Origin: Ignavibacteria bacterium
GTDB lineage: Bacteria; Bacteroidota; Ignavibacteria; UBA10030; SZUA-254
Direction: 5' to 3'
DNA length: 33,931 bases
Assembly: GCA_016178625.1 (NCBI GenBank)
Contig: JACOSX010000099.1
Location: 1-33,931, forward strand
A model generated the notes under the pieces. That model was not told the DNA's origin. It searched no databases and saw only the letters and a list, made by a program, of their open reading frames with translations. The position numbers were made by a program, and so were the translations under genes. Positions 5,814 to 25,739 of this stretch are shown piece after piece; the first letter of the stretch is position 1; each line of letters opens with the position of its first letter.

Positions 5814-6868
5814 CGTACTTCCCTTTCCCGTCCGATCTCAAGAAGCGCCGGTTCCTCGATCGAGCAATCACTCTTTACTTGGGGGCAGTGTGGATGAAAC
5901 TTACATCCCGTGATGGATTGAGGCGCTGCTTGGACGCTTCCTGAAGTCACGGAAAAGCTTTCGAGGGTAGCATCTCGAGCGGGCATACTTGCCAGGAGTC
6001 TCTTTGAGTATGGGTGATAAGGGTTAGAGAAAAATTCATGATTTGGCGCTGATTCAATAATCCGACCTGCATATAAGACAATGATCCGATCGGCGTAGGT
6101 TTGGGCGATTCGTAGATCATGTGTTGTTACGAGCAATCCCATGCCGTGGGATCGGCAGTGGGTGGAGAGGAGGTCAAGGATTTGATATCGCAGCGATGCG
6201 TCGACAGCACTGATAGGCTCATCTGCGATGAGGATTGGTGGTTCCTCGATAAGTGCCATCACGATGAGTATTCGCTGGAGAGTCCCAAGGCTGAGTTCAT
6301 GGGGGTACGAATGCAATACTCTCTCAGGCTCTTGGATTCCAACCATGACAAAGTAATCCTGAATAGCATCGAGTGAAAAACCCCCGGATTCTTCTGACTT
6401 GCTTTTCTTGAAGGACTGGAGAAGCTGAAACTGTGATTTGATCCTCAAAACAGGATTCAACGACGATGATGGCTCTTGGAAAATGTATCGGATCAATTTT
6501 CTCTTTTCAGTACTCAGCTGTTCGCGTTTCCCCGGAAGGACATCGATGCCCTTGACTGTAACTGTTCCCTCAACCCGCATTCCTGATCCAGTGGGGAAAA
6601 GATATGTGAGTGCCCGAACCAGTGTTGTCTTTCCGCTACCACTTTCTCCAAGGAGCATTACAGTTTCAGCGGGATTCACGCAAAAGGAAATTTCATGGAG
6701 AAGCTCCTCACGTCCTTTTGTATCTTCGATCCACACGTTTATCTGTCGCGCATTGAGCACGTTTTGACCTTCTATATTCGTATCGGCATCACAGAGTGAC
6801 CATGCAATTGTATGCAAAAAACTCCGCAATTTCAAATTCTTTGTAACAGAATGTGACATGTGTAACAT
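5795..6868 (-). CDS. ABC importer ATP-binding protein, Opp/Dpp D-type, non-canonical signature
   Basis: This is a 357-residue partner ATPase. It has Walker A GESGSGKT, Q-loop YIFQEP, Walker B ILIADEPISAVD, H-loop VTTHD, and a C-terminal oligopeptide-HPY segment with the cysteine pattern GCKFHPHCP. The ABC signature reads LSLGTLQR instead of LSGGQRQR, so this subunit's half of the composite ATP site may be weak. Roughly 37 residues precede the usual family start; the true start may be the ATG at 6868, the ATG at 6859, or one further in. A palindrome at 6861-6877 sits on this boundary. The gene is first in a two-gene minus-strand operon and diverges from the solute-binding protein gene. Confidence 0.9.
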   Translation of the reverse strand: MLHMSHSVTKNLKLRSFLHTIAWSLCDADTNIEGQNVLNARQINVWIEDTKGREELLHEISFCVNPAETVMLLGESGSGKTTLVRALTYLFPTGSGMRVEGTVTVKGIDVLPGKREQLSTEKRKLIRYIFQEPSSSLNPVLRIKSQFQLLQSFKKSKSEESGGFSLDAIQDYFVMVGIQEPERVLHSYPHELSLGTLQRILIVMALIEEPPILIADEPISAVDASLRYQILDLLSTHCRSHGMGLLVTTHDLRIAQTYADRIIVLYAGRIIESAPNHEFFSNPYHPYSKRLLASMPARDATLESFSVTSGSVQAAPQSITGCKFHPHCPQVKSDCSIEEPALLEIGREREVRCLYWK

Positions 6869-6877: not shown

Positions 6878-6883
6878 ATATCA

Positions 6884-6912
6884 TTGACACTCCTTTTTCG
6901 TTTGATTAGATT
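6884..6912 (+). promoter_or_regulatory. Candidate housekeeping-type promoter for the transporter-kinase operon
   Basis: TTGACA (6884-6889) is followed after 17 bp by TAGATT (6907-6912), a fair -35/-10 pair just upstream of the solute-binding protein's ATG codons. The same TTG could formally start the frame, but it is better explained as promoter DNA. Confidence 0.4.
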
Positions 6913-6940
6913 GCAGCGGTCAATGAATGGTGATCGACCA

Positions 6941-8683
6941 ATGAGAAATCCGGAACAAGGAGATAAGACATTTTTCATCAAGATTCAGTGTTCACTGGTT
7001 CTTGCCGCCCTGGTATCTGTTCTCGGGGGATGCTCTCAAAAAAAGGGGCAAGAGACGGCAAACGCCAACACACAGGTTGTAATAGCGTTGGAAGGCGATA
7101 TTGATAGTTTCAATCCGTTGTTTGCCGAGGATGTAGCAGCAGGTGAAATCAATGATCTCTTCTTTCCAGGACTGACAACATCGCGGTTCGATACGGTGCT
7201 CGGCGTGTTAGAGTACGAACCATCGTTGGCGAAGTCATGGGAATATGAGAATGGCAATAAAGATATTCGCTTTCACTTGCAGACAAATGCGAGATGGCAA
7301 GATAGCACGAAGATGAAGGCAAAGGACGTTGAGATATCCTACGAGCTGTACGCAGATACAAGTGTGGCGAGTATCCGTCAAGCCTCGGTCGATGGTCTGC
7401 GGCGAACCTCGTCTGGTTCTCTTGATGTATCGAAGGCTGTGGAGGTTGTAGACGATAGCACAATTCTTTTTCACTTTGACCATCCCTATCCCGGGCAACT
7501 ATTCGATGCAGGACTGCCCATCCTTCCATCGCATGTATTCCAGAATCTCCCGCGAACATCGATGCGGGAACAAGGGCCGTCTCGACAGCCACTCAGCGCC
7601 GGACCATTTGTCTTAAAGTCATGGAAGCCCCTTGAGGAGATTGTCATCACATCAAATCCATTGTCTGTGGTGCCCCATTCGGCGAAACTCTCCGAAGTGA
7701 TTTTTCGCATCATCCCAGACTATCACTCACGGTTGATGCAACTTCGAGCGGGGGAAGTGGACGTTCTCCCTTATATCGAAGTTGAAGACGCGCTCGAATT
7801 GGCTCACAAGAACATGTCCATTCGGATTGTCCCGCTTGGTGAACGGTTTTACGATGCGATAAATTGGAATTCAATTGATCCTGAGGAATATCAACGATCA
7901 AAAGGGAAAGTTCTCCGCCCGCATTATCTCTTTGGAACCGCACGCGTGAGAAAAGCCTTGACCCTTGCGATCAATCGGAAAGAAATTGTCGACTCCTATC
8001 TGCGGTCGTATGGGAAGGAAGCCATCGGTCCGATATCACCATTGTTTCGCTGGGCATACAATGATACCCTGAAACCATTGCCCTTTGACCCATCACTAGC
8101 GTCGAAGTTACTCTATGAGGAAGGCTGGCGTGATACCGATGGTGACGGCGTCCTAGAAAAGGACGCACGGAAGTTTTCATTTGCTCTGAGAATTCCTGCA
8201 GGAAATCAGCTTCGCGCCACTATTGCATCGATTGTGCAAAGACAACTCAGTGCGATGAAGATCAGGGTGACGATCGAGCAGGTCGAACGGTCCGTTTTCT
8301 GGAGTGATCTTATGGAAAAGAAATTTGATGCGTGCATCGCCGGATTTAGTGTGCCGCTGCAGCTTCAGCTTGATGAGTGGTGGAGCAGCGATCTTGAACG
8401 ATCGCGGTTCAACCTGACATCATTCCGCAACAAAAGGGTTGATGAGATCCTCGCGGGCACTCGCCGTATCGTCAAAGAGACTGACCACGCTAATGCATGG
8501 AAAGAATTTCAGACAATATTGCAAGACGAACAACCATGTACCTTCTTGTACTGGATGAATGATTTAGTGGCTGTTAATACGCGCATCCAAGGGATTGAAA
8601 TGGGTATCCTGGGCATCGCATATCATGCAGGTGACTGGTATGTAGGTGATCAACGTGCTGATGACAAGGCACAATCGAAGTGA
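6941..8683 (+). CDS. Solute-binding lipoprotein of an Opp/Dpp-type ABC importer (SBP family 5)
   Basis: This 580-residue periplasmic binding protein has the family 5 pattern: IALEGDIDSFNPLFAED near the N-terminus, the SFNP core, SLAKSWEYENGNKDIRFHL, and the RVRKALTLAINRKEIVDS block. The N-terminus is a lipoprotein signal with a hydrophobic stretch ending in the lipobox LGGC (Cys31 from this start). The frame is open back to a TTG at 6884, and an ATG at 6923 is also possible; 6941 gives the most normal signal peptide. The protein captures the substrate, probably a peptide, for the two permeases downstream. Its stop overlaps the next gene's first possible start (GTGA, 8680-8683). It is the first gene of an operon that continues into a kinase and a sigma-54 activator. 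Confidence 0.9.
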   Translation: MRNPEQGDKTFFIKIQCSLVLAALVSVLGGCSQKKGQETANANTQVVIALEGDIDSFNPLFAEDVAAGEINDLFFPGLTTSRFDTVLGVLEYEPSLAKSWEYENGNKDIRFHLQTNARWQDSTKMKAKDVEISYELYADTSVASIRQASVDGLRRTSSGSLDVSKAVEVVDDSTILFHFDHPYPGQLFDAGLPILPSHVFQNLPRTSMREQGPSRQPLSAGPFVLKSWKPLEEIVITSNPLSVVPHSAKLSEVIFRIIPDYHSRLMQLRAGEVDVLPYIEVEDALELAHKNMSIRIVPLGERFYDAINWNSIDPEEYQRSKGKVLRPHYLFGTARVRKALTLAINRKEIVDSYLRSYGKEAIGPISPLFRWAYNDTLKPLPFDPSLASKLLYEEGWRDTDGDGVLEKDARKFSFALRIPAGNQLRATIASIVQRQLSAMKIRVTIEQVERSVFWSDLMEKKFDACIAGFSVPLQLQLDEWWSSDLERSRFNLTSFRNKRVDEILAGTRRIVKETDHANAWKEFQTILQDEQPCTFLYWMNDLVAVNTRIQGIEMGILGIAYHAGDWYVGDQRADDKAQSK

Positions 8684-9678
8684 ACGAGGGTATGATGAAT
8701 ATTCACCGCATGGGAAAGTTTATTACAAAAAAGGCTGCGTCAGCGGTTGTTCTTTTGTTCGGCTTGATGACAATCATTTTTGTCATCGCACACGCCGCAC
8801 CGGGGGATCCTGTGTCAGCGATGATCTCGCCAAAAACTCCCGCGTCGGTTGGGCAAGAGCTGCGGCACCAATTTGGGCTGGATCAGTCTGTGTTTCTTCA
8901 ATACCTTCGGTGGTTGGAGAATGCGCTGAAGGGCAACTTCGGGTTCTCCTTCAGCTATCAACGACCCGTCGTCGATGTTCTAATGAGTTTTTTCCCAAAT
9001 ACGGCGCTGCTCGCATTGAGTGCCATTGGTTTGGAGATCATTCTCGGTGTGGCGTTGGGAATTCTCGCTGTGAGTTATCAGAACTCGTGGCTTGATCGGA
9101 TTATCAACAATGCAAGCTTAGTCGCATACACCCTTCCCACATTTTGGGTTGGACTGATGTTCCTGGCTCTCTTCTCTTATGCTCTGGGATTGTTTCCCTC
9201 TTCTCAGATGAACTCGGTTGAAGCTGAACAGCTTTCGGTAGCGGGTCGATGTCTTGATCTGGTGAAACATCTGATACTGCCGGTCCTGACAATCGCTGTT
9301 TCGGGTGCCGCAGGCATTGCGAGATATTTTCGTGCAAGCCTCTTAACAGTGCAAAACGCCGAATACGTTACCTACGCTCGCAGTCTGGGAATTAAAAAAC
9401 GCGATATCTTTCTCTTCTATGAGCTCCCGAATTCCATCGCGCCGGTGATCACCATCCTCGGTCTCGAAATAGGGACCCTCCTCGCTGGCGCTGTGGTAAC
9501 GGAGACGATTTTTGCTTGGCCCGGTATCGGCCGTCTTGCAGTCTTGGCGATGCTGTCACGCGACTATCCGCTTATCCTCGGGTGTACTTTGGTCTCTGGC
9601 ATTGTCGTCATCGTCGGTAATCTTATTGCCGACTTGTTATACATGTATGTTGACCCTCGAATTCGCCTTCCAGTATGA
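8680..9678 (+). CDS. ABC importer permease, Opp/Dpp B-type
   Basis: This 332-residue inner-membrane permease has family landmarks: an N-terminal helix followed by AHAAPGDPVSAM, the periplasmic segment RHQFGLDQSVFLQYLRW, and the cytoplasmic EAA loop (YARSLGIKKRDIFLFYELPN) that docks the ATPase. About six membrane segments can be seen. The GTG at 8680 overlaps the upstream stop. A GAGGG at 8686-8690 would also serve the ATG at 8695, which would shorten the protein by five residues. It forms the channel with the next gene's product, with which it overlaps by 4 bp (ATGA). Confidence 0.92.
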   Translation: MNEGMMNIHRMGKFITKKAASAVVLLFGLMTIIFVIAHAAPGDPVSAMISPKTPASVGQELRHQFGLDQSVFLQYLRWLENALKGNFGFSFSYQRPVVDVLMSFFPNTALLALSAIGLEIILGVALGILAVSYQNSWLDRIINNASLVAYTLPTFWVGLMFLALFSYALGLFPSSQMNSVEAEQLSVAGRCLDLVKHLILPVLTIAVSGAAGIARYFRASLLTVQNAEYVTYARSLGIKKRDIFLFYELPNSIAPVITILGLEIGTLLAGAVVTETIFAWPGIGRLAVLAMLSRDYPLILGCTLVSGIVVIVGNLIADLLYMYVDPRIRLPV

Positions 9679-10970
9679 AATTTTTTTGGGGACATCCTGC
9701 ATCGTCACGATCACACATAGGATATCTTGCCGGTGTGTTGTTGCTCGTCGTCTTGATGACGTGGTGGAAATGGGGGATGCTTTCCATGTGCATCCTCTCG
9801 CTGGTTCTGAGCCTTCTTTCACTCGTGACCACTCACTTCGACATGTCAGGCACATTGCTCATAGAACTCGTTCCATATTGGTTATCATGCGGTACGTGGG
9901 TTTTTATTATAGTTTTTCTTGTAAACAAAATCCGTAAGGGATATGCTCATCGAGGTCGAGAATCAGTCCCGGTAGTCTTCGGTCGTCAATTTCCAAAAGG
10001 GTCGCGTGTCAAGAGGGTTCCTCTTTCTGTGATCCTCGTATGCGTCATCGTTGCACTTGAAGCACCTCTCTTAGCGCCGTTTGATCCACTTTCACAGGGA
10101 GACTTGCGATCAACGCGTTTTCTGAATCCGTTTGAGAAAGCGCTCGTAACAGAAACAACTCTTTCGGTGGAAAGTGGAGGTCGCTTCTCGAACAATTGGA
10201 TTGAGCAGTCACTTCATAATGCGAACAATTATCTACTGCAACACAATGAAAACTATACCCGCTGGAATAGTCTGATCGCGGGAGACGGTTCCTCTCATGT
10301 ACGGACGTTTCTCCTGGGCACGGACGGACTGGGGAGAGATGTCCTGAGCCGTTTGATATATGCGCTGCGGATATCGTTACTTATTGGATTTGCTGGGATG
10401 CTTGGCTCAATTCTTTTCGGATGTGTTGTGGGATTTATTGCAGGCATTTCAGGCGGTTGGGTAGACCATCTACTGATGCGTATCACCGATCTCTTCTTAG
10501 CTATCCCTTCTCTTTTTCTGGTGATCGTACTTGTTGCATTTCTTGGTAATTCATTGCTGCTTCTCATCCTCGTTCTTGCCGGAACTGGGTGGATGAGTGT
10601 TGCACGTCTCGTGAGGAGCGAGCTGTTATCTCTACGGGAACGCGAATTTATCCTCGCCGCTCGACTTCTTGGTCGTTCTCGCCTCCAGATCGTGCGCGAG
10701 CATATGGTTCCGAACGTGGTTCCCATCATCATCGTGGCATTGGTACTTCAATTCGGAAACGTAATTCTGGCAGAAGCGGCATTGAGTTTTCTCGGTTTGG
10801 GGATTCAGCCACCGACACCCACGTTGGGGAATATGATTGGCGAGTCTTATCAGACGATCAGTACTGCCTGGTGGGCAAGCATTTTTCCCGGGGTAGTTCT
10901 CTCCTTGATCATCGTCTCATTCAGTGGTATTGCCGAAAGTCTTCGGCGAGAGGTTCAGTTCTTGCGATGA
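9675..10970 (+). CDS. ABC importer permease, Opp/Dpp C-type, with extra N-terminal membrane domain
   Basis: At 431 residues this is clearly longer than the usual 280-310. The core is normal: APFDPLSQGDL, LLGTDGLGRDVLSRLIY, and the EAA loop AARLLGRSRLQIVREHMVPN followed by EAALSFLGLGIQPPTPTLG. Ahead of the core are about 115 extra residues with three hydrophobic segments (roughly 16-33, 35-52 and 65-82). A long soluble insert (about 150-205) precedes the GTDGLGRD motif. The ATG overlaps the preceding stop (ATGA at 9675-9678), and the stop overlaps the kinase gene's ATG (ATGA at 10967-10970), so translation is tightly coupled in both directions. The extra part could form a docking or sensing surface, but that is inference. 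Confidence 0.9.
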   Translation: MKFFWGHPASSRSHIGYLAGVLLLVVLMTWWKWGMLSMCILSLVLSLLSLVTTHFDMSGTLLIELVPYWLSCGTWVFIIVFLVNKIRKGYAHRGRESVPVVFGRQFPKGSRVKRVPLSVILVCVIVALEAPLLAPFDPLSQGDLRSTRFLNPFEKALVTETTLSVESGGRFSNNWIEQSLHNANNYLLQHNENYTRWNSLIAGDGSSHVRTFLLGTDGLGRDVLSRLIYALRISLLIGFAGMLGSILFGCVVGFIAGISGGWVDHLLMRITDLFLAIPSLFLVIVLVAFLGNSLLLLILVLAGTGWMSVARLVRSELLSLREREFILAARLLGRSRLQIVREHMVPNVVPIIIVALVLQFGNVILAEAALSFLGLGIQPPTPTLGNMIGESYQTISTAWWASIFPGVVLSLIIVSFSGIAESLRREVQFLR

Positions 10971-13900
10971 TCAACTTCCGGTACTATATCATCAAGAAGC
11001 TGGGCGAAGGTGGCAATGGGGAAGTCTACCTCGTTGACGATAGGCTAAAGAATTGCCAGCGTGCGATGAAGGTGCTCTCTTCATCACGGCATCTCGATGA
11101 AGACATGATCCGCAAAGAGTTTTCCGTGCTCTCGGGTTTGTTTCATCCTCATCTTATCCGTGTGTTCGATTTCGGGGTTGTTCGACAATCGGATGAGCAA
11201 CAATTCTTACACCGCCATTTCTATACAATGGAATATCTTGAAGGAACCAATGCTCTCGAATATGTTCGTTGCGTTCCGTTGGGAAAAGAAAAGGTTGAGC
11301 TTCTTGAAGATCTTTTTATTCAGACACTCGGTGTGATAGCGTACATCCATCGTAAGGGGATCATTCATTTTGATATTAAACCCCAGAACCTTTTTCTCGT
11401 CGAGGGTCATGGACACCATAAGAAAACTGTGAAGTTGACAGATTTTGGCTTTAGTGAAACGACGGTGCCGTCGGTTGACACCGCCGTCCGCGGAACACTC
11501 GAATATATCGCTCCGGAAATCGTGCAGGGGTTCCCAATCGATCATCGCATCGACCTTTATTCACTTGGCGCGACCTTTTACCACCTGTGGGAAGGACGTT
11601 GTCCCTTCGAAGCTTCCGCGCCTGTTGAACTATTGAGGATGGTGGTGTCAGAGAATCTTCCACCGTTAGCTGGTGTCGAGGGTGTCCGGTCACTGCTGCC
11701 CCAATTAATAGAAAGACTTTGTCGAAAAGATCCCTCAGAACGTTTTGAGGACGCACGTCAGATTCTGTCGAACTTTGCTTCGTCAAAGTACGAAGACAGT
11801 GTCAAGGAGACATTGTATTTTGGGCAGCGGTTACCGTTCGTTGGAAGAAGGAAAGAGAAAGGTGTTATCCAGGAAGCTCTTCAAGCGCTCGAAGGAGGTC
11901 GTGAACCGACGGTGACCTCCATACTCGTCATAGGGGCGCAAGGCAGTGGAAAAACTGAACTCTTGAACGAAGTTGCTACTGAAGCGCGGTCGCGCTCTCT
12001 TCTCACGTTGAAATCTGACAGAACAAGTGCCAACAGACCCTTCACTTCAATCGAGAGAGCACTTAGACGGCTCGACATGGAATTGTGTTCGCGCGATTTG
12101 CCGTCGCCGTTTCGCGAAACAGATGATGATACAATTTTCTCACCATCCCCATCTTCCACTGGCGAGAATGAACTTGCCGACCGAGCGCGCCGTTATGCGA
12201 GCCATATGCTGAGGGCTTCAACCCAGCTCCCGATACTTTTTATTTTGGATGATCTTCCTATAATGGATCCGTATTCTCTGGAGACAGTCCGATCGATTGC
12301 GGCAGATGACAAGGGGGGAAGAATCGTTCTCGTGGCAAGCATTCGAGACGACGATGCGGATAACTGTCCGTTCGGTGACCAGACGACCACGCGGATCATA
12401 CTGAAGGAACTTTCAGTGGATGAAACACTTGCTCTCATCGACTCTTCGTTAGGTCGGGCGTTTGCCTCGACGAACATTGTTCAAAGAATCCACAGCCTCT
12501 ACGGCGGCATCCCCTACATCATTATGGAGGCAGTTACATCCATCGCAAACGCATTGCCGCTGGCAGTTTTAAATGATCCTATCGGCCTCACAGAAAGAGG
12601 GGACGATTTAGTGGAGTTCCTTTCGCTGAGTTTCGAGGAGTTCTTTGCAACCAGATTTCGTGGTCTGCGGCGCGAGAAGCAAATCATACTGGAGCTTATA
12701 TCTTGCTTTGAGATTCCGTCTCCGGTAGAGATCCTCAAACGCGTGGTGCCATTCCAGAGCGACCGGCTGATCGATTATCTCGTTTCCCTTGAGCATCAAG
12801 GCTACGTTGTTTCACATGAGGAGCAGAGACGATTCCAGTTTCGCCATTTGAAGCTTAAGGAATACGTTTATCATTCCATTGAGTACGATCGCGCAGCTCT
12901 GCACAATTTCATAGCGACGACCCTCGAGACGTTGACTGCGGACATAGGATGGAGCGATCGTAATGAACTCGGTCGACAATTCAGATTGGGGAATACGAAC
13001 GCCAAGGCATTGGAGCATTTTGAAGCAGCAGGGGATCAGGCACGAGTTGAGGGTGCACTTGCAGATGCAGACGCTATGTACAAGAATGCACTTGGATGTT
13101 TGAGCGAAGACGAAAGGGAAGTCCGAGTTTCTCTATCACTCAAGCTCGCTGAGGTGTATCAGGCAAAAGGGTCCGATCAAGAGAGCATCACCATCTATGA
13201 ACAACTCCTCGCCGAGTTGAGCGCAGAGGATCCACGGTGCAAGACAATCAACAAATCTCTTGGGAAAGGGTTTGCGAGACTTGGGGAAAACGCGAAAGCG
13301 CTCCATAATTTTCAGGCAGCGTTACATGGTTTAGTTGAAAATGTAGATCGTCTTGAAATCCAACAAGAGATCATTTCATTGAAGATCGCAGAGGGGAGTT
13401 TCGATGAAGCGATCCATATGGGTGAAGTTCAGAAAACGCTTGCAGGCTCTCAGGGTGACAGGAATTTCTTGGCGCTCGTCGAGACGGACCTCGGCATTGC
13501 GCAGTTCTACAAGGGCAGCTTCAGGGAGTCTTTGGAGGCATTTCAGAGAGCACTTACCATTTATGATAACGCTGGCAACAAAAGTAAAACTATCGATGCA
13601 CTGAATAACATTGGTAATGTCCTAAGTGCAATGAAAGATTTCCGCGCTGCATTGGAAAAGTGGAAGCAAGCGCTCATCTTGGTGGGCGATCGGGATATTC
13701 ACCAGCAGCGTGCGATGATTCTGAATAATCTCGGTATCGCACATTATAAACTTCGTGAGTTTTCGGAGGCATGGTCGCATTACCAGAGTGCCAGAGAAAT
13801 CTTTCATCAACTCAATTCCAAGAGCGGCGTTGCAATGGCACTCACAAATCTGGGGGAAGTGACATACGCGGAGTGTAAATATGAAGAGGCTCTTCATTAT

Positions 13901-14656
13901 TGGACGGATGCACTTTCCATGTACGAGGAGATGCAAGACTCCAACGGTATTGGACAGACACTCCTCGAAACGGGACAATTACATATAACGGTAGGTGATC
14001 TCTCCCTCGCAGAGCAGGTGCTCGATCAGGTTGACACTGTCAGGGAGAAATTCAATCTCAAAACGTTTGAGGCACTTTCACAATACCTCCACGGTTTGGT
14101 TCACATGATCCGAGGCGATTATTCCGAAGCCCTGACGGCGCTGAAGTCGGCGGAGAAAGCGTTTCAGGTCGAGGGTTCATTCACTGGAGGGTGCGAAACA
14201 GAGTTTGAGAAACAACAAATCATTCTCCTGCGCATGGCTGAGATCTGTTGCCGGTGGAATGAGTATGAAAAGGCGATTTCGATTTTGGAGGGGATCTCGA
14301 ATGTTAAAAATGGAACCATCTCCCCTCTTATCATAGCCGAAGTCAATTTTCATTTGGGCGAGATCGCCCGATGCCATCCTGACCTGCTGCCGGCGAGGGC
14401 GGTAATGTATTTCAAAGAGGGGTTATCGTTAATAGAGGGCGAGCAGGTCTCTGAGATTAGCTGGAAACTTTCTAATGCCTTGGGACGAGAATTTGATCAT
14501 CGAGGGAATAGAGAGAAAGCACATGAATATATCATGAATGCGAAACGGATCCTTGAGTATTTTTCGTCACTCTTCACTTCAGAAGCATTGCGTGAACGAT
14601 ATCTCGCCTCCTATAGACGTCACGAAGTTCTAGAGTTGATCGAATCACGATTGTAA
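10967..14656 (+). CDS. Ser/Thr protein kinase-AAA ATPase-TPR regulator (PknK/HstK-like)
   Basis: This 1229-residue protein has three parts. Residues 1-280 form a Hanks-type kinase: glycine loop GEGGNGEV (13-20), K35, alphaC E51, catalytic loop HFDIKPQN (134-141, D136), DFG (159-161) and the APE motif (182-184). The residue before the catalytic Asp is Phe rather than Arg, so it is a non-RD kinase. Residues from about 289 form an AAA/STAND-type ATPase with FVGRRKE, Walker A GAQGSGKT (about 322-329) and Walker B LFILDDL. The remainder is mostly TPR repeats, including ALEKWKQALILVGDRD and YEEALHYWTDALSMYEE. No GAF or histidine-kinase part follows, unlike many relatives. The frame is open further upstream, but the ATG at 10967 begins exactly at the kinase fold and overlaps the permease stop by 4 bp. 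It probably senses transport or its ligand and signals to the adjacent activator. Confidence 0.9.
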   Translation: MINFRYYIIKKLGEGGNGEVYLVDDRLKNCQRAMKVLSSSRHLDEDMIRKEFSVLSGLFHPHLIRVFDFGVVRQSDEQQFLHRHFYTMEYLEGTNALEYVRCVPLGKEKVELLEDLFIQTLGVIAYIHRKGIIHFDIKPQNLFLVEGHGHHKKTVKLTDFGFSETTVPSVDTAVRGTLEYIAPEIVQGFPIDHRIDLYSLGATFYHLWEGRCPFEASAPVELLRMVVSENLPPLAGVEGVRSLLPQLIERLCRKDPSERFEDARQILSNFASSKYEDSVKETLYFGQRLPFVGRRKEKGVIQEALQALEGGREPTVTSILVIGAQGSGKTELLNEVATEARSRSLLTLKSDRTSANRPFTSIERALRRLDMELCSRDLPSPFRETDDDTIFSPSPSSTGENELADRARRYASHMLRASTQLPILFILDDLPIMDPYSLETVRSIAADDKGGRIVLVASIRDDDADNCPFGDQTTTRIILKELSVDETLALIDSSLGRAFASTNIVQRIHSLYGGIPYIIMEAVTSIANALPLAVLNDPIGLTERGDDLVEFLSLSFEEFFATRFRGLRREKQIILELISCFEIPSPVEILKRVVPFQSDRLIDYLVSLEHQGYVVSHEEQRRFQFRHLKLKEYVYHSIEYDRAALHNFIATTLETLTADIGWSDRNELGRQFRLGNTNAKALEHFEAAGDQARVEGALADADAMYKNALGCLSEDEREVRVSLSLKLAEVYQAKGSDQESITIYEQLLAELSAEDPRCKTINKSLGKGFARLGENAKALHNFQAALHGLVENVDRLEIQQEIISLKIAEGSFDEAIHMGEVQKTLAGSQGDRNFLALVETDLGIAQFYKGSFRESLEAFQRALTIYDNAGNKSKTIDALNNIGNVLSAMKDFRAALEKWKQALILVGDRDIHQQRAMILNNLGIAHYKLREFSEAWSHYQSAREIFHQLNSKSGVAMALTNLGEVTYAECKYEEALHYWTDALSMYEEMQDSNGIGQTLLETGQLHITVGDLSLAEQVLDQVDTVREKFNLKTFEALSQYLHGLVHMIRGDYSEALTALKSAEKAFQVEGSFTGGCETEFEKQQIILLRMAEICCRWNEYEKAISILEGISNVKNGTISPLIIAEVNFHLGEIARCHPDLLPARAVMYFKEGLSLIEGEQVSEISWKLSNALGREFDHRGNREKAHEYIMNAKRILEYFSSLFTSEALRERYLASYRRHEVLELIESRL

Positions 14657-14675: not shown

Positions 14676-16097
14676 ATGGCAAGAATTAATGAGAAGTTCA
14701 AAATCATGTTGTGTGGAAAGAAGGATTTGATGGAATCTCTGCAAAAGGCGATTGTGAAATCGCGCGAGGTTCATCTTCAGTTCACCTCATCGCCCGCGTT
14801 CTTGATGGGGCGAGCGGTATTTACTACTCCCGATGTGGTCTTGCTTGATGCAGCCATTGATCGGTCGCTCTTGCAAGAGGTGTTGGAGAGTTTTCGAATG
14901 CATTATTCACATGTCTCGCTCTTCCCGATCGCAACCGCTGCCCATCATCAGGATGTTGTGGACTTAATGAAGCATGGGGCAACAGGATTCTATGAATTTC
15001 CCAACGACTATAGGAAACTTAATGAACGGCTCAAACAACTGATCGAGGAATGGCGAATGGCGCATAGCCAGAAGCGCTTCATCCAGCTGCAACAGCGTGC
15101 GTACGACTTTAACCAGATCATCGGCTCTTCTCCACGACTCACTGAGACTCTTCATCGTGCGAAAAAAGTCATTGAAAACCCTGCAATGACTGTGCTCATC
15201 ACCGGCGAGACCGGAACTGGGAAAGAGCTTCTTGCTCGCGCGATTCATTATAATAGCAGCAACAGTAACAGCCCCTTTGTGGACATTGCCTGCTCAGCCC
15301 TGCCCGAAGCCTTGCTCGAGTCAGAACTATTCGGATACGATAAAGGTGCGTTCACTGACGCTCGAGAAAAGAAGCCAGGACTCTTTGAACTCGCCGCGGA
15401 TGGAAGCATCTTTCTCGATGAGATCGGTGACATTTCGCTCCCAATGCAATCAAAGCTCCTGAAGGTTATTGAAAGTCGTACAATGCGCCGGCTTGGAGGA
15501 TTGCACGATATCCCCGTAAAAGCGCGTATCATCGCGGCGACCAGCGTCGACCTTCAAGCAAAAATGAAGGCTGGCACCTTCAGGAAAGATCTTTTCCATC
15601 GGCTCAAGATCATTCCATTGGAGGTTCCTAGCTTACGTGAAAGGAAGGAAGACATCCCGCTCTTCGCATCGACGTTCATTGATTTGTTCAATAGATTGTA
15701 TAACAAGAAGATCAGTGGCGTGTCCCCAGATGCTCTCCACGTGCTTGCAGAACATGAGTGGGAGGGGAATATTCGCGAACTGAAACACAGCATCGAGCGG
15801 GCGGTTCTTCTCAAGGAAGATGGAACGTTGGAAAGAGATGATTTTGACTTTATGTCGAAGTCTAAGTCGGATCATGTTCCCTCGGGCAGAGGAAAAAATG
15901 GTAAAGGCATCTCTTTGTCTCAGGATGACGCGATTATTCTCAGCATTCCTCTCGCCGAAGCTGCTATGGAGGATGTGCAGCGTAAACTGGCGCTACGGGT
16001 GTTGGACTACGTCGGTGGCAACAAGAGCAAAGCTGCTTATATTCTCCGGATTTCGCGACCTCGGTTAGATCGAATCTTGCGCATCGCCCCGGATTGA
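14676..16097 (+). CDS. Sigma-54-dependent activator EBP1 with degenerate receiver
   Basis: This 473-residue NtrC-family protein is ordered receiver-like domain, AAA+ ATPase, Fis-type helix-turn-helix. The N-terminal 125 residues keep a receiver outline (VVLLDAAID, HGATGFYEFP). They lack the acidic pocket (IMLCGKKD where VDDD is expected) and the conserved Lys, so normal phosphorylation is doubtful. The AAA+ domain has Walker A GETGTGKE (177-184), Walker B SIFLDEIGD and the WEGNIRELKH segment. The sigma-54 contact loop reads GAFTDA (224-229) rather than GAFTGA. The C-terminus (LDYVGGNKSKAAYILRISRPRLDRIL) binds DNA. The gene starts 20 bp after the kinase gene with GGAAGGA upstream of the ATG. 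Its likely target is the -24/-12 promoter at 16313, 216 bp after its stop. Confidence 0.92.
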   Translation: MARINEKFKIMLCGKKDLMESLQKAIVKSREVHLQFTSSPAFLMGRAVFTTPDVVLLDAAIDRSLLQEVLESFRMHYSHVSLFPIATAAHHQDVVDLMKHGATGFYEFPNDYRKLNERLKQLIEEWRMAHSQKRFIQLQQRAYDFNQIIGSSPRLTETLHRAKKVIENPAMTVLITGETGTGKELLARAIHYNSSNSNSPFVDIACSALPEALLESELFGYDKGAFTDAREKKPGLFELAADGSIFLDEIGDISLPMQSKLLKVIESRTMRRLGGLHDIPVKARIIAATSVDLQAKMKAGTFRKDLFHRLKIIPLEVPSLRERKEDIPLFASTFIDLFNRLYNKKISGVSPDALHVLAEHEWEGNIRELKHSIERAVLLKEDGTLERDDFDFMSKSKSDHVPSGRGKNGKGISLSQDDAIILSIPLAEAAMEDVQRKLALRVLDYVGGNKSKAAYILRISRPRLDRILRIAPD

Positions 16098-16391
16098 TCA
16101 GGTGGTGCATTGAATCGTTACACATGTTGCTTCCAATCACTTCAAACCGTGCAAGGAGGATTTGTCGGACAACTCTCAATTCCCCCTAGCCCCACCCATC
16201 CTGTGCTTGTCCTCACGCAAGAACGTACATATTCACGTCGACGGATCCTCGATCCAGGAATGACATCCTCAATTTTCTCCTGTAATAGAATAATTCCATG
16301 AATTAGTCTGTCTGGCATACCCATTGCAGTGTTAAAAGGTATGAGATTTACTCAACGGAATTAGGCATTTTGAATATCGCTAGGTGAGAAT
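16098..16391. other. Intergenic control region between EBP1 and the lipoprotein operon
   Basis: I see no credible gene in this 294-bp stretch. It holds a small inverted repeat GGATC-CTC-GATCC (16243-16255), located about 70 bp upstream of the sigma-54 promoter, where an activator site would be expected. The promoter itself is at 16313-16328. A 63-codon open frame (16110-16301) has no recognisable features. Confidence 0.6.
16313..16328 (+). promoter_or_regulatory. Sigma-54 (-24/-12) promoter upstream of the lipoprotein operon
   Basis: TGGCATACCCATTGCA matches the sigma-54 consensus TGGCAC-N5-TTGCW, with the GG and GC elements exactly 10 bases apart. Transcription would start near 16338, giving a leader of about 53 nt before the ATG at 16392. 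A sigma-54 activator gene ends 216 bp upstream. Confidence 0.8.
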
Positions 16392-17045
16392 ATGAAAACT
16401 CTAACAATCTATTGTGCGCTTACGTTGCTGGTGCTGCTTGTTGCTCTCCTTTGCGGCTGCCAAAATCAAGGACCTTTCGACCCCTCAATTCGCGGTGGGG
16501 TAAATGAGGTTGGACAGCCGCGGTCTGCAGCGATCAGAGCCCCGATTGTCACTATACCGTTTGTGCCGGTGGTTCCAGAGGTTGACCTCGGGGTATACCA
16601 GATGCCCCCACCGAAAGACGGTGTCGTCGCTGTTGCCGCGGATTCACAGTATATCATCGCTGCAATTGGCGGCACTCTTTCCTGCGTTGACTCATACGTT
16701 GACTACAATGGCCAATTGGTGACACGCGCAGCAACTCTCACGATTCCACCTCTTGCTTTACGGAACGACGGGATGATCAGCATGTCTCTCAATCCAACCG
16801 AGCTCGCGGTTGATTTTGCACCTGAAGGGCTGGTGTTTCGGCATCAAATCGGTCTCGACTTCAGTGTCACCGGAATTAGCGAGCTGAAATCTGGCGCACC
16901 GGTTAACTTTTATTATGTGAACTACACAAACAATCAGTTATTGCCGGTATCGTACGACAGCCTTACGGTCGATACGATGCTTGGCAACGTGAATGTATAT
17001 AATGCGAGTATCCTGCACTTCTCTCGCTATGGATTCGCCCGATAG
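16392..17045 (+). CDS. ZU5-like lipoprotein 1 of 3
   Basis: This 217-residue protein has a lipoprotein signal with a long hydrophobic run ending in LCGC. After a Pro-rich linker, the C-terminal half follows the ZU5-like pattern found in bacterial lipoproteins: GGTLSC, an alternating strand, LTIPPLAL, ISMSL, FAPEGLVFRHQIGLDFS, NFYYVNYTNN and a closing ILHFSRYGFAR. It is the first of three adjacent paralogues that share the PFDPS segment after the lipid anchor and/or the HFSRYGF ending. It is presumably anchored in the outer or inner membrane and faces the periplasm or surface. The function is unknown. It is the first gene behind the -24/-12 promoter. Confidence 0.85.
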   Translation: MKTLTIYCALTLLVLLVALLCGCQNQGPFDPSIRGGVNEVGQPRSAAIRAPIVTIPFVPVVPEVDLGVYQMPPPKDGVVAVAADSQYIIAAIGGTLSCVDSYVDYNGQLVTRAATLTIPPLALRNDGMISMSLNPTELAVDFAPEGLVFRHQIGLDFSVTGISELKSGAPVNFYYVNYTNNQLLPVSYDSLTVDTMLGNVNVYNASILHFSRYGFAR

Positions 17046-17089
17046 AGCTTGTTAGCGAACTGAAAGCAACAGAACTAAGAAGATATAGA

Positions 17090-17743
17090 ATGAACATGAA
17101 GAATATACGCCTCCAACTGGTCCTGATCTTAGTAACTATAGCATTCGTAAGCGGATGCCATGACAGTACGCCGTTCGATCCCTCCTCGAGTCGATCAGGT
17201 GAACAGCCGATCATGCCCTTGCGCTCAGGGGCGGTGCGAAATCCCATTGTTGTCATTCCTACTGCTCCAACAGTTACTGAAAGGGATATCCAGCTCGTCG
17301 ATCTGCCGGCGGGGCTAGGGAAAGAGACGATCTTCTACGATTCCAAGCTCGTCACTGTTGGTGATGGGGGCGTGCTATCGTGCACAGGGGTGTATCTGAA
17401 TCTTTCCGGGAAACTTGTGAGCCGGACGGCAAAATTTGTTATTCCACCGAACGCTGTGAAACACGATGTGCAAATTACGATGGTCCTCGACACCGTCCAC
17501 CTTGGTGTGATGTTTGAACCATCGGGGCTATTCTTTGACCGACCCGCCGTTCTCAGTTTCCAAGCTGATGGCTTAGATCTAAGCGCGAGCGCATCACCGC
17601 TTGATTTTTACTACATCGATGATAATACAAATGTCTTCGTGCCAGTCGAACAAAAAATTCTTAACACAGATGTCGTACAAGGGACAATTGACCTCCAGAC
17701 CGCAGAGATTTATCATTTTTCACGGTATGGATTCGGACGATGA
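17090..17743 (+). CDS. ZU5-like lipoprotein 2 of 3
   Basis: This is a 217-residue paralogue of the preceding gene. The signal peptide ends in the lipobox VSGC and is followed by PFDPS, as in copy 1. The ZU5-like half shows GGVLSCTGVYLNLSG, FVIPPNAV, VQITMVLD, FEPSGLFFDRPAVLSF, DFYYIDD and IYHFSRYGFGR. It starts 44 bp after copy 1, with the ATG at 17090 (a second in-frame ATG at 17096). Its stop overlaps the first possible start of copy 3 (ATGA at 17740-17743). The three copies differ most in the linker and in loops, as expected for old tandem duplicates that have diverged in binding surface. Confidence 0.85.
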   Translation: MNMKNIRLQLVLILVTIAFVSGCHDSTPFDPSSSRSGEQPIMPLRSGAVRNPIVVIPTAPTVTERDIQLVDLPAGLGKETIFYDSKLVTVGDGGVLSCTGVYLNLSGKLVSRTAKFVIPPNAVKHDVQITMVLDTVHLGVMFEPSGLFFDRPAVLSFQADGLDLSASASPLDFYYIDDNTNVFVPVEQKILNTDVVQGTIDLQTAEIYHFSRYGFGR

Positions 17744-17784
17744 GAATTAAATTACATGATAATTACACCATTAAGAAAGCCCTA

Positions 17785-18390
17785 ATGAAAAATATCGTAA
17801 TAACTTTGCTGTTCGCATTACTTCTGATGATACACGCCATTGGCTGCGGACCAGTTGATGGTCCGATGGATTCTCAAGTCCCCATCAGCAGGGACCCTGT
17901 TCATCCATCGCCCTTAACAATACCCCTTCTTCAAAGTATTAATCTGGTCACCTTGCCGGATGGCAATGGGAAGGGAAATATTATAACGACGACACAACTA
18001 GCAACCGTTGTCGGGGGCGGAAAATTATCTCTTACATATTCGTACACATCAAAGGTAGGTACCACCGTCTATCGAACAGCAACTCTCACTGTACCGGCAC
18101 GGGCTCTGAGCAAAGACACCTATATTACGATGACGTTCGATACCTCGTATGTGGCAATCAAATTTAAGCCTGAGGGCCTCATCTTTAACCACCAGTCTTC
18201 TTTAGATTTTACCGCAAAAGGTTTGGATCCGGCAACATTAGTAACAGGGCTTGCGTTTTACTACTCCAATGACAACGGCTCCTTTGAACTCATTCCGAAT
18301 CTGAATTTATCTGTAGACCTGTTGAAAGGCAACGTCTACATGACTGGCGGTGTGATATCGCACTTTTCACGGTATGGTTTTGGCCGTTAA
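17785..18390 (+). CDS. ZU5-like lipoprotein 3 of 3
   Basis: From the ATG at 17785 the protein has 201 residues. An in-frame ATG at 17740 overlaps the previous stop, but the extra 15 residues are charged and would give a poor signal peptide. The signal has a hydrophobic run ending in AIGC. The PFDPS segment of copies 1 and 2 is not conserved. The ZU5-like half reads GGGKLSLTYSYTS, LTVPARALSKDTYITMTFD, FKPEGLIFNHQSSLDF, LAFYYSNDNGSFELIP and VISHFSRYGFGR. It is the last of the lipoprotein trio. The TPR gene follows within about 40 bp, suggesting one transcript. Confidence 0.82.
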   Translation: MKNIVITLLFALLLMIHAIGCGPVDGPMDSQVPISRDPVHPSPLTIPLLQSINLVTLPDGNGKGNIITTTQLATVVGGGKLSLTYSYTSKVGTTVYRTATLTVPARALSKDTYITMTFDTSYVAIKFKPEGLIFNHQSSLDFTAKGLDPATLVTGLAFYYSNDNGSFELIPNLNLSVDLLKGNVYMTGGVISHFSRYGFGR

Positions 18391-18428
18391 CGTATTTGAC
18401 ATTTACTGAAGCAACAAGTATAGAGCAT

Positions 18429-19685
18429 ATGGTAACACAGAGAGATACTATCGTCAATCGGGAGATTCTTACTCTTGTAAAGACCTATTGTGGATCGAAG
18501 GTGATCACGCGATTCATCGCCGACCAGAAGAGAATCCAACGGATGGAAAAAAAGGTGTTAGGGAAAAACAGTACATCATCAAGTGCTGCCCACGTACCCG
18601 AAACAAACCTCCACGATACAGTATCATTTGATCATCTGCTGACAGTTTGTAAGAATACACTGAAAGCGTACGAGTACCAAGAAGTATTGCTGGGGATCGG
18701 GAACATTTATAAGACCCATGCCATATTTCATCAAGCTGAAAAGATGTACAACGAAGTATTAACATTTGGTGAGAAACATCGGCAAAACGATTTCGTTGCC
18801 GAGGCGTTACTCCGAAGAGGTGAAGTGTACAGCTGCCAGGGACGCTGGAGAGAGTCGAACACCGACCTGGAACAGAGCCGGACGCTCTTTGTGATGAATC
18901 AGGATATGGCTTCCCTGGCAAAGCTGGAAAATATCTTGGGAACTTCGCTTGCTGAACAGGGTTTAATGCACGAGGCGAACGATCACTTCTCCAAGGCTCT
19001 CCGGAACTCCGAACAATCCTCCCAAAAAATGCTTTCGGCGATGATCTTCATGAATCTGGGAATCATTCAGAACATCCTCGGCAATTGGGATGAGGCACTG
19101 AATAACTATCACCGAGCATTGACCCTCTTTGAAGTTGCAGGTGACATGACAAGAGCCGCGGAGATCCATCATAATATAGGGATGTCCTATCTCTCGAAAG
19201 GCGATTTCGTACATGCGAACAGGGAGTTTGATCGGAGCCTCGAGTATTCAAGTCGACTCCATAATCCCGCACTGACCGGACTGGCGAAGCTCGGAAAAGC
19301 GACCGTACATTTTCGTTCATACGACCTTGCGCTTGCACTAGCGCTCTGCAATCAGGCCCTTGAGAATTTCAAGACATCTCAAAACCCTCTCGGTGTTGCC
19401 GATGCATACAAGGTAAAGGGAATGATCCTGCGGGAGTTAAAAGAGTACGATCTCGCCGAAACTCACTTCCAGTCTAGCCTTAGGCTTAATGAGGAGTTTG
19501 CGAATATGCTAAACCTTGGAGAGACACACTACGAAATGGGCATCATGGAAAAACATCGCCGGCGTTCGGAAGCAGTTGCAGAAGCTTTCTCGAACGCACT
19601 TTCATGTTTTAACAAAGTTGGAGCCCGCGTTGAGATCGAACGAACGAAACAAGAACTTGAACATATTGAAAGAAAACGAACATGA
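18429..19685 (+). CDS. TPR-repeat protein linked to a histidine kinase
   Basis: The protein has 418 residues from the ATG at 18429; the frame is open 33 bp further to a TTG at 18396. From about residue 75 to the end it consists of TPR repeats, such as MNLGIIQNILGNWDEALNNYHRAL, HHNIGMSYLSKGDFVHANREFD and YKVKGMILRELKEYDLAETHF. No signal peptide or catalytic domain is seen, so it is likely a cytoplasmic scaffold or sensor. Its stop overlaps the histidine kinase start by 4 bp (ATGA at 19682-19685), implying the two work as a pair. The repeats resemble in style the TPR half of the kinase at 10967. Confidence 0.85.
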   Translation: MVTQRDTIVNREILTLVKTYCGSKVITRFIADQKRIQRMEKKVLGKNSTSSSAAHVPETNLHDTVSFDHLLTVCKNTLKAYEYQEVLLGIGNIYKTHAIFHQAEKMYNEVLTFGEKHRQNDFVAEALLRRGEVYSCQGRWRESNTDLEQSRTLFVMNQDMASLAKLENILGTSLAEQGLMHEANDHFSKALRNSEQSSQKMLSAMIFMNLGIIQNILGNWDEALNNYHRALTLFEVAGDMTRAAEIHHNIGMSYLSKGDFVHANREFDRSLEYSSRLHNPALTGLAKLGKATVHFRSYDLALALALCNQALENFKTSQNPLGVADAYKVKGMILRELKEYDLAETHFQSSLRLNEEFANMLNLGETHYEMGIMEKHRRRSEAVAEAFSNALSCFNKVGARVEIERTKQELEHIERKRT

Positions 19686-21004
19686 GATTGCACGAACTCC
19701 TGAACCAGAATAAGATCGCAGGAACAACATCAGCCTCCAAAGAGGACGTTGCCGCTCAAGATCCGCATATCCCTCGAGGAGGGCAGTTGCAGGATCTCGA
19801 GACTGTTCTCAGTGTTATTCGTAAGATCAATACGTCCTTGGTGCTCTCAGATGTGTTGGCATTAGTGATCGATCATGCGATCCGCATTACTTCAGCCCAG
19901 CGAGGATTTCTCATGCTGTCCAATAAAGAAGGGCATCTTGAATACGTTGTCGGTCGCGATAAGAATGGCAATGTCATCGACTCTGATAAATTCCAGGTCA
20001 GCGGGACGGTCCTTGAGGATGTCTACACCACCGGCGAATCAATCTGTATCGAGAGTGCCCTCAACGATGAACGATTTGAGCAGCGACAGAGCATCATCAA
20101 CCTGGAGCTGCAGATGATTATGTGCGCCCCACTGCAAACACATGAAGCGACGATTGGGGTCATCTATGTCGACAGTCGTTACATCCACTCAGTGAACCGG
20201 GATGATATTCTCCGGTTGTTTGAAATTCTCGCCGGTCAAGCAGCCATCGCGATCACCAATGCCCGGTTGTATGAAGATCTCAAGAAGACATATGAGGAAC
20301 TCAAGAATGCGAACGAACACATTATCAAGTCAGAGAGAATGGCAATGCGCGGCGAGCTTGCCGCCGAAGTGAGTCATGAGCTCAAGAACATCATCAATAT
20401 AGCGCTCTTCCAGACTCAGAATATTCAACGCACCATGAGACGCGGGGAGATGGAAACATCTGAGAAAACCCTGAAAGATCTCATCGATACGATTCGAAGA
20501 ATCAATAATTTTTCAGATAATCTGCTTGTTCGCACGAGCATTAATTCTCAATGTGTGCCTTTGGAGTTGAACGGTTTTGTAAACAACTTCGCTTTCTTCA
20601 TCAAGCACTTACCAAAGTTCCGCAATGGAAAGATTGTGGTCGAAGTGGATCCGGAGGTACCCGAAGTGAGCGCTGACAGTGACCAGATCCAACAGGTTCT
20701 GCTCAACCTTGTCAACAATGCTATTGAGGCATGTGCCGAGGCGACGATTACACTGAGAACTGAATACGATTTCATCAATAACGCTGCGCGATTGATTGTC
20801 GCTGACAACGGTCCCGGTCTCGATCCACGAGTGAAAGAGAAACTCTTTATCGAAAAGGTGACGACCAAACCAAATGGTCACGGCTTTGGCTTGCCGGTGT
20901 GCCGCAAGATCGTCCAGAACCATAAAGGCGAGATCATCGTCGAATCTCAACAAGGACAAGGTACGAAGTTCATTATCACCATCCCTGTTTCATCACCGTC
21001 GTAA
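19682..21004 (+). CDS. Cytoplasmic GAF-domain sensor histidine kinase
   Basis: This 440-residue protein has a GAF domain at about residues 45-200 (VLALVIDHAIRITSAQRGFLML, MCAPLQTHEATIGVIYVDSR), a coiled-coil linker, and a histidine kinase core. The H-box is EVSHELKN with the phospho-acceptor H232. The N-box is VLLNLVNNAIEAC, G1 is VADNGPGLD and G2 is GHGFGLPVC. No membrane segment is present, so input is probably cytoplasmic. It lies last in the operon behind the lipoproteins and TPR gene. No cognate response regulator is adjacent; the stand-alone receiver at 4596 is the only intact receiver in the window. The two sigma-54 activators have degenerate receivers. Confidence 0.92.
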   Translation: MRLHELLNQNKIAGTTSASKEDVAAQDPHIPRGGQLQDLETVLSVIRKINTSLVLSDVLALVIDHAIRITSAQRGFLMLSNKEGHLEYVVGRDKNGNVIDSDKFQVSGTVLEDVYTTGESICIESALNDERFEQRQSIINLELQMIMCAPLQTHEATIGVIYVDSRYIHSVNRDDILRLFEILAGQAAIAITNARLYEDLKKTYEELKNANEHIIKSERMAMRGELAAEVSHELKNIINIALFQTQNIQRTMRRGEMETSEKTLKDLIDTIRRINNFSDNLLVRTSINSQCVPLELNGFVNNFAFFIKHLPKFRNGKIVVEVDPEVPEVSADSDQIQQVLLNLVNNAIEACAEATITLRTEYDFINNAARLIVADNGPGLDPRVKEKLFIEKVTTKPNGHGFGLPVCRKIVQNHKGEIIVESQQGQGTKFIITIPVSSPS

Positions 21005-21090
21005 GTAGGCACCCTGCTGCAGGTTATTCCGTGCTGGGTAACATAATAGGGAATAAGATGGTTGAGCGAGAGGTGATGACAGGGGGAAAG

Positions 21091-22517: not shown

Positions 22518-22526
22518 AACGCGCCA

Positions 22527-25718: not shown

Positions 25719-25739
25719 ATTGTTGGAAAGGAGTACAGG

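Follow-up and report, generated by a model that had tools for sequence, protein, structure and literature searches.

Three tandem ZU5-like lipoproteins with a predicted self-cleavage site in a conserved signalling cassette of an Ignavibacteria bacterium

Contig JACOSX010000099.1 of an Ignavibacteria bacterium (assembly GCA_016178625.1), of which positions 1 to 33,931 of the forward strand were analysed and are called the window below, carries at 16392-18390 three head-to-tail open reading frames (ORFs) of 217, 217 and 216 residues that encode small paralogous lipoproteins. In each of them, a signal peptide and a Pro-rich linker precede a ZU5/GAIN-like domain ending in HFSRYGF(A/G)R, and this fixed tail is the feature of the trio that stands out most. 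We favour, with somewhat better than even confidence, the view that these are stand-alone lipoproteins of a self-cleaving type, whose predicted cleavage would be coupled to folding and would fall between Phe and Ser of the HFS motif (HF/S), and that they serve a conserved signalling unit. The computed basis of this reading comprises the fold, the register of the tail, the conservation of the motif, gene linkage, co-occurrence across genomes and the enrichment of a promoter sequence. The features concerned, all on the plus strand, are the following:

16313..16328, +, sigma-54 type -24/-12 promoter sequence TGGCATACCCATTGCA, 79 nt upstream of lipoprotein 1
16392..17045, +, lipoprotein 1: signal peptide with Cys23, Pro-rich linker, ZU5/GAIN-like domain (ORF, translation, AlphaFold 2 (AF2) model)
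16635..17042, +, ZU5/GAIN-like domain of lipoprotein 1, residues 82-217 (AF2 model, structural matches)
16914..16916, +, Tyr175 codon of lipoprotein 1, candidate counterpart of the GAIN aromatic (VIA-align offsets)
17016..17024, +, H209-F210-S211 of lipoprotein 1, predicted scissile bond F210-S211, tail SRYGFAR to 17042 (register and conservation)
17090..17743, +, lipoprotein 2 (translation, sequence comparison)
17333..17740, +, ZU5/GAIN-like domain of lipoprotein 2 (alignment with the modelled copies)
17714..17722, +, H-F-S of lipoprotein 2, tail SRYGFGR to 17740 (alignment and conservation)
17785..18390, +, lipoprotein 3, with an upstream ATG at 17740 as alternative start (translation, AF2 model)
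17983..18387, +, ZU5/GAIN-like domain of lipoprotein 3 (AF2 model, structural matches)
18361..18369, +, H193-F194-S195 of lipoprotein 3, tail SRYGFGR to 18387 (model and conservation)

The first-pass annotation, made from the sequence alone, had described three adjacent paralogous lipoproteins, each with a lipobox, a Pro-rich linker and the HFSRYGF(A/G)R ending, and all of these are indeed present in the three translations. When the window's own genome was searched, lipoproteins 2 and 3 matched lipoprotein 1 with 38% identity (E 5e-42) and 36% identity (E 9e-24), respectively, and no fourth paralogue was found at E up to 0.01. ATG 17785 is the more likely start of lipoprotein 3, rather than ATG 17740, because the apparent signal peptide begins at 17785. 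By reading of the sequences, the signal peptides lead to the Cys of LCGC, VSGC and AIGC; the window proteins thus have the signal peptide and lipobox Cys by which lipoproteins are recognised, and their acylation is predicted. The lipobox Cys is invariant across the 30 copies chosen for one alignment of the family (A4), and one member of another alignment, A2 (L025:5415), is without it. The linkers, of 46-59 residues, contain 14-17% Pro, compared with 3-4% in the domains, which are 135-136 residues long. A strong divergence of the linkers had also been claimed. This holds only in part, and not as a general statement, the pairwise identities being 40, 23 and 40% for the linkers against 38, 39 and 39% for the domains. 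The last nine residues (HFSRYGFAR, HFSRYGFGR and HFSRYGFGR in lipoproteins 1, 2 and 3) are 89-100% identical. Thus, the tandem trio and its shared tail had been correctly noticed; what had been missed was the position of HF/S at a self-cleavage register, and the conserved permease-kinase-sigma-54-TPR-histidine kinase cassette in which the trio lies. None of the three proteins has a match over a cut-off in Pfam, NCBIfam or PADLOC. A Sigma_reg_N match of lipoprotein 3 (E 0.023) was rejected, as it covers the signal peptide.

Lipoproteins 1 and 3 were modelled with AF2, each singly. The model of lipoprotein 1, built from 27 sequences, has a mean predicted local distance difference test (pLDDT) score of 86.2, exceeding 90 across most of the domain, and that of lipoprotein 3, built from 30 sequences, a pLDDT of 88.6. 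Foldseek placed ankyrin ZU5 first for the lipoprotein 1 model, with a weak E of 0.012. In VIA-align comparisons, this model matched ankyrin ZU5 at Z 7.5-10.4, followed by the CD97 GAIN domain (8.6), UNC5b (8.1) and the BAI3 GAIN domain (8.1); just below GAIN came an axonemal protein (7.3) and the glycoside hydrolase domain GH98 (7.2). The lipoprotein 3 model gave Z 9.0-12.3 for ankyrin ZU5, 8.8 for both UNC5b and the ZO-1 ZU5 domain, 8.0 and 7.8 for the GAIN domains of CD97 and BAI3, and 7.7 for GH98. The best ankyrin ZU5 rows align 115 (lipoprotein 1) and 118 (lipoprotein 3) residues. A Z near 8 could reflect a common arrangement, so that the GAIN rows are not distinctive by Z, and the best ankyrin rows are. 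In these models, the folded half therefore appears to be a beta-sandwich of the ZU5 superfamily, at the level of fold.

A link at the level of sequence profiles points the same way. In another Bacteroidota genome, the Pfam ZU5 model (PF00791) matches a domain over its cut-off at G095:C22:74020-74220, and our family profile matches this same domain at E 5e-7; moreover, hhalign of the family against four hand-cut bacterial domains that are PF00791-positive gave a probability of 98 and an E of ~1e-12, as a single-template comparison. These profiles suggest a relation to accepted ZU5 members. PF00791 has no match in the window's own genome at E up to 10, and matches 2 of the 27 A2 members, with a best E of 0.005. 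The domain is a member of the ZU5 superfamily and not of the Pfam ZU5 family. The ZU5-like assignment of the first-pass annotation is thus borne out, both by fold, since the two models match ankyrin ZU5 best (Z 10.4 and 12.3), and by the profile comparison that it had proposed; an unrelated fold, which would have spoken against it, was not found. PDB sequence searches with a single protein, with the full profile and with a tail profile returned no ZU5, GAIN or Nup98 chain among the matches listed. A galectin-1 construct (E 6e-4 in a PDB sequence search) was set aside because its match depends on two weak repeats. Nup98 is absent from the listed matches of both structure and sequence, which is uninformative.

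Nup98 and PIDD cleave themselves at an HFS motif, and CARD8 is cut at SF/S; in CARD8, the Phe before the cut is a buried anchor, equivalent to Leu677 of UNC5b (PMC3210808). In the GAIN domain of BAI2, the site is H910-L911-S912, and R855 occupies the base position in BAI3 (PMC13062082). In the VIA-align rows, the last residue of each model (217 for lipoprotein 1, 201 for lipoprotein 3) is paired with UNC5b 684, BAI2 918 and BAI3 863. Taking the last strand as ungapped, this puts Phe210 and Phe194 on UNC5b 677, H-F-S on BAI2 910-911-912 and the His on BAI3 855. In both models, the strand assigned by DSSP is interrupted precisely at F-S. The same offsets, assuming no gap between, place Tyr175 on BAI2 876 and BAI3 821. 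These are S876 and L821, the position (S10.49 in GAIN domains) whose aromatic side chain stacks on the His, as F803 does in latrophilin-1, and at which F, Y or W supports cleavage in GAIN domains (PMC13062082). This Tyr precedes the His by 34 residues in lipoproteins 1 and 2, and by 33 (Tyr160 to His193) in lipoprotein 3; residue numbers give a corresponding spacing of 34 for BAI2 and BAI3 and of 33 for latrophilin-1 (PMC13062082). On these models, the HFS tail would lie at the self-cleavage register of GAIN and FIIND/ZU5 domains, from which we infer that the window lipoproteins probably cleave themselves at HF/S and that the tail may be released after the cut.

The motif recurs among relatives. 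HFSRYGF had served as the search word in the scan behind alignment A2, all 27 members of which carry it. Profile A3 was built to limit this bias and stops before the motif. A3 relatives were found in 39 of 197 genomes of the class and in 29 of 395 genomes of the phylum (two overlapping samples; at most 11 candidates per genome were scored in the phylum-sample search and in the kinase search below). The 102 distinct copies listed were reduced, by dropping those that covered the profile poorly, to 96 aligned sequences, namely 79 small copies, those of the window included, and 17 larger proteins. HF followed by Ser or Cys is present in 75 of the 79 small copies (HFS 74, HFC 1), in 48 of the 52 that lie outside A2 (HFS 47, HFC 1), and in 50 of 51 clusters formed at 50% identity. 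Invariance in the small copies reaches 75 for the H and the F, 75 for the Ser or Cys, 77 for P144, 74 for F149 and 79 for the Tyr or Phe at 213. Column 175 holds Y in 63, W in 10, F in 5 and H in 1, hence F, Y or W in 78 of 79. The 17 larger proteins have the H in 15, the F in all 17, S, T or V at the nucleophile position (14, 2 and 1, respectively) and F, Y or W at column 175 in 14. The family was found in Bacteroidota, and the named records are mostly Ignavibacteria-labelled metagenome-assembled genomes.

Two kinds of divergent relatives came up in this collection. In several proteins of ~400-600 residues from other Bacteroidota (L083, L085-L088, L116, L119 and others), the domain lies in the middle of the chain, has HFSDW or HFTxF at the site and is followed by more C-terminal sequence; neither of the two that were scanned, L083 and L086, has a Pfam match at E 1e-4. 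In genome G192, paralogues at L097, L098 and L067 carry another stretch in place of H-F-S, followed by RYGFTR, and are natural candidates for non-cleaving forms.

The three lipoprotein genes belong to a conserved cassette that also comprises an oligopeptide permease (Opp), a Ser/Thr kinase-AAA-TPR protein, a sigma-54 activator, a TPR protein and a GAF histidine kinase. The permease at 5064-10970 is complete by Pfam: its two ATPases are encoded on the minus strand, its binding protein and two permeases, which follow, on the plus strand. The other genes of the cassette in the window are:

5064..5813, -, ABC ATPase, OppF-like (Pfam)
5795..6868, -, ABC ATPase with oligo_HPY, OppD-like (Pfam)
6884..8683, +, SBP_bac_5 peptide-binding protein, OppA-like (Pfam)
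8680..9678, +, permease, OppB-like (Pfam; sole match in the genome at E 1e-10)
9675..10970, +, permease, OppC-like (Pfam; 4-nt overlap with the kinase start)
10967..14656, +, Ser/Thr protein kinase-AAA_16-TPR protein (ATG 10967 chosen as start; the listed ORF opens at GTG 10589)
14676..16097, +, sigma-54 dependent activator with a weak receiver-like N-terminus (domain scan)
18396..19685, +, TPR_12 protein, 5 nt past lipoprotein 3, no signal peptide by eye
19682..21004, +, GAF-HisKA-HATPase histidine kinase (Pfam)

Neighbourhoods were counted in the 37 of 57 lipoprotein loci that span at least 9 kb, the window included, several of them cut by the ends of contigs or of the fetched stretches. Of these loci, 30 contain a TPR gene, 20 the kinase and likewise 20 the histidine kinase, the sigma-54 activator occurs in 17 and OppB in 15; by a hand count of the maps, the TPR gene is adjacent to the lipoprotein, among labelled genes, in 28. 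Upstream sequence of at least 1.5 kb was available at 18 kinase loci; an Opp-like gene lies within 6 kb in 17 of them, and OppB within 2.3 kb in 14. The three weaker links are an OppC 4.7 kb off (L123), an OppF-like ATPase only (L124) and a divergent OppD and OppF (L096), and at L130 no Opp-like gene was found within 6 kb. In 60 genomes, the window's own included, and with a kinase threshold of E 1e-70, the kinase was found in 13, a strong small lipoprotein in 12, both in 12 and neither in 47 (nominal Fisher p 9e-12). In the sole kinase-only genome, G004, the contig ends inside the kinase gene. A lipoprotein-profile match in G001, weak (E 9e-7) and inside a 1203-residue frame, was left out of this count. 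The distribution of the lipoprotein is patchy: four families (f1, f4, f5, f6) have it, and in every one of them there are also genomes without it.

In the tree, the window trio forms one clade (support 0.75). Eighteen genomes or contig sets have more than one small copy, and these form a single clade in six (the window, G012, G204, G364, G491 and G525) and not in the other 12, which indicates that both local expansion and older paralogy occur. In the array of G204, lipoprotein and TPR genes alternate.

The sequence at 16313-16328 matches the sigma-54 promoter consensus in its spacing. Exact TGGC-N7-TTGC is found in 10 of 77 upstream regions of lipoprotein genes and in 4 of 325 controls (p 2e-5); with 7 of the 8 bases, the figures become 41 of 77 and 48 of 325 (p 1e-11). 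Three of 80 copies, without a usable Cys, and 24 of 349 controls, shorter than 200 nt, were left out of this count; the start codons were guessed by pattern, and the region taken for lipoprotein 1, for which the pattern chose an internal Met, ended inside the gene, its site being verified separately. An rpoN gene was found in the window's genome, and the neighbouring sigma-54 activator may act on the 16313 sequence. Sigma-70 promoters and terminators occur in the region at chance level. Elsewhere in the window, within 26566-33846, an exact -24/-12 sequence at 28263 stands between a second sigma-54 activator (26566-27987) and an ORF at 28623-29681, upstream of the latter. Neither this ORF nor the 1351-residue ORF at 29791-33846 has a Pfam match at E 1e-4.

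Other genes of the window lie outside the cassette. Two tRNA-Arg genes with different anticodons, at 3114-3188 (+) and 21090-21164 (-), flank the block that runs from Opp to the histidine kinase. A 952-residue protein with He_PIG, Calx-beta, Flg_new_2 and a Por_Secre_tail sorting domain is encoded at 73-2931, and 22425-26183, downstream of the cassette, encodes an ORC-CDC6-like protein, an MFS transporter and a ChrB_C protein. A reading of the cassette as a defence system was considered and dropped because the PADLOC and NCBIfam matches of the kinase, the activator and the TPR protein cover only their kinase, AAA and TPR parts.

In the mechanism that we propose, the trio would be stand-alone, envelope-anchored members of the ZU5/GAIN/Nup98 autoproteolytic superfamily. 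Once the protein is exported and folded, the Ser hydroxyl would attack the strained Phe-Ser bond of H-F-S, which would then be hydrolysed; the His two residues before the nucleophile would help the attack, and the aromatic residue would perhaps hold this His. The heptapeptide SRYGF(A/G)R would stay in place as a non-covalently held last strand and could later be lost. The lipoproteins would be expressed from the sigma-54 promoter as members of one conserved signalling cassette, and their number would have grown through local duplication, at times together with the TPR gene.

Several observations weigh against this reading, and many of them bear as well on a serious, though less probable, alternative, namely that HFSxY is only structural, its His, Phe, Ser and Tyr packing the last strand of uncut surface or periplasmic lipoproteins controlled by the neighbouring regulators. 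The motif is not sufficient for cleavage, since BAI2 carries HLS yet hardly cleaves (PMC13062082), and UNC5b retains the fold with Leu677 at the Phe position (PMC3210808). Mutation of the Nup98 His lowers cleavage only slightly (PMC3210808), so that a fixed His is not required by that chemistry alone. The four small copies that lack H-F-S, all from G192, retain Tyr175 together with RYGFTR, which means that the aromatic of column 175 is not tied to the motif; they also depart from the family at F142 and F149. Invariance comparable to that of the motif is seen at P144, F149 and the aromatic column 213, which leaves room for a structural role, and the length of the tail fits the need of a last strand. 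The register itself was derived from the range ends of structural alignments, and two GAIN rows are off: latrophilin-1 by two for lipoprotein 3 (192 to 837; its site is T838), and GPR56 by one for lipoprotein 1 (209 to 382). As for the fold, no Foldseek match reached E 0.001, PF00791 scored none of the three window proteins at E up to 1, and the GAIN rows are level with the unrelated GH98 domain, only the ankyrin rows being clear of it. The p values are inflated, because copies and genomes are related; exact promoter sites are found only in a minority of the upstream regions, and 4 of the 10 come from two genomes of one genus (L038, L039, L042 and L043 in G054 and G042). On the other side, few positions of the domain vary less than those of the motif and, outside the four motif-less copies, the sole replacement of the Ser in small copies is Cys, which is also a nucleophile; these two points speak against a purely structural role.

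Self-cleavage could also be the source of a signal. We consider it unlikely, but worth stating, that the freed heptapeptide is imported by Opp and read by the TPR kinase and the TPR protein, which would act through the sigma-54 activator on the lipoprotein genes. Equally doubtful is the corollary that this would be a Gram-negative parallel of Rap-Phr/RRNPP systems, with a self-cutting lipoprotein as propeptide. The presence of Opp in the same gene block, an OppB that is the only one matched in the genome and the frequency and adjacency of the TPR gene are in line with such a relay, as is the length of the tail past HF, exactly 7 residues in 58 of 75 copies and 9-26 in the remaining 17, RRNPP signals having 5-15 residues and being imported by Opp-type permeases in Gram-positive bacteria (PMC10569065). 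Nevertheless, the peptide, its uptake and its binding are all speculative, and the evidence for Opp is one of linkage; the tail would be buried as a strand, its length may reflect that strand only, and the tails are too alike for private signals. Furthermore, the solved structures that match the TPR protein best are TPRs of a generic kind, Rap appearing towards the bottom of the 33 listed, 7 of the 37 loci show no TPR gene, and in genomes G023 and G028 the lipoprotein is on a different contig from the kinase cassette. Were the relay to operate, it would be a circuit whose signal is excised by its own precursor, a 'Stachel without a receptor', with the loop closing on the sigma-54 activator, an outcome that we regard as improbable; with no greater confidence, the same circuit might also serve cell-autonomously, as a reporter of lipoprotein folding or of envelope force. 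The idea of the first-pass annotation that the copies represent three binding specificities or a hetero-oligomer seems to us the least likely of all. Three tandem copies with domains ~39% identical have been retained, multiple copies recur in relatives, and in the 12 of 18 multi-copy genomes that are not of one clade some paralogues must be old; against this, the window trio is one clade with nearly identical tails, and a single copy accompanies the same cassette in L030, L032, L041 and L043.

The predicted self-cleaving lipoproteins can be compared with several known systems. They share the fold, with Z up to 12.3, of the ZU5 family (PF00791: ankyrin, UNC5b, ZO-1), which is autoproteolytic in PIDD and, as the ZU5-like FIIND, in CARD8 and NLRP1, and the HF/S or SF/S site at the domain end is that of the autoproteolytic ZU5/FIIND domains (PMC3210808). 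Unlike these, they score below the Pfam cut-off and are secreted lipoproteins that end at the last strand, 7 residues past HF, with no UPA after the site as in FIIND and PIDD. They resemble the GAIN/GPS region of adhesion G protein-coupled receptors in the H-x-S/T register and possibly in the second-shell aromatic, and in either case the last strand would remain as a held peptide after cutting. However, a GAIN domain is defined by subdomain A and a conserved disulphide before the GPS, and the window proteins are not GAIN domains by this definition: neither model contains a helical subdomain, the domains of the trio have 0-1 Cys, no seven-transmembrane receptor follows, and the residue before the predicted cut is Phe where BAI2 has Leu. 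The autoproteolytic domain of Nup98 has the HFS motif (PMC3210808) in what is, unlike the window lipoproteins, a nuclear pore protein. Like the lipoproteins described here, the ZU5 autopeptidases of bacterial polymorphic toxins and surface proteins are secreted and predicted to cleave themselves (Zhang 2012, PMC3482391). As described there, they are large, with a ZU5 domain typically near the N-terminus and a CxH motif, whereas the window form is a lipoprotein of ~200 residues, with HFS and a few residues at its end, in a regulatory cassette. Since bacterial ZU5 autopeptidases were predicted in 2012 (PMC3482391), the superfamily is not new to bacteria. With the RRNPP/Rap-Phr systems of Bacillota, in which several pheromones within one propeptide are known (PMC11343458), the cassette has in common an Opp permease, TPR proteins without a signal peptide and, if cleavage occurs, a short C-terminal peptide of a secreted precursor. 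It differs from them by a folded lipoprotein precursor with its own predicted cutter, by the Ser/Thr kinase and by the sigma-54 output, and signalling is here a proposal. In the open-access PMC literature, none of the matches listed deals with the short lipoprotein form, its HFS register or the Opp-kinase-sigma-54-lipoprotein cassette. Finally, the residues that follow HFS in Nup98 are presumably similar to the tail of the window proteins.

Self-cleaving ZU5/GAIN domains have been studied in animal receptors and inflammasome proteins, and small lipoproteins of bacteria that share this fold and catalytic register would offer a simple system for the chemistry of self-cleavage. Were cleavage to feed the permease and kinase cassette, the result would be a Gram-negative peptide signal from a precursor that needs no separate protease. 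The cassette, for its part, gives an unnamed family of Bacteroidota lipoproteins a regulatory context that can be tested.

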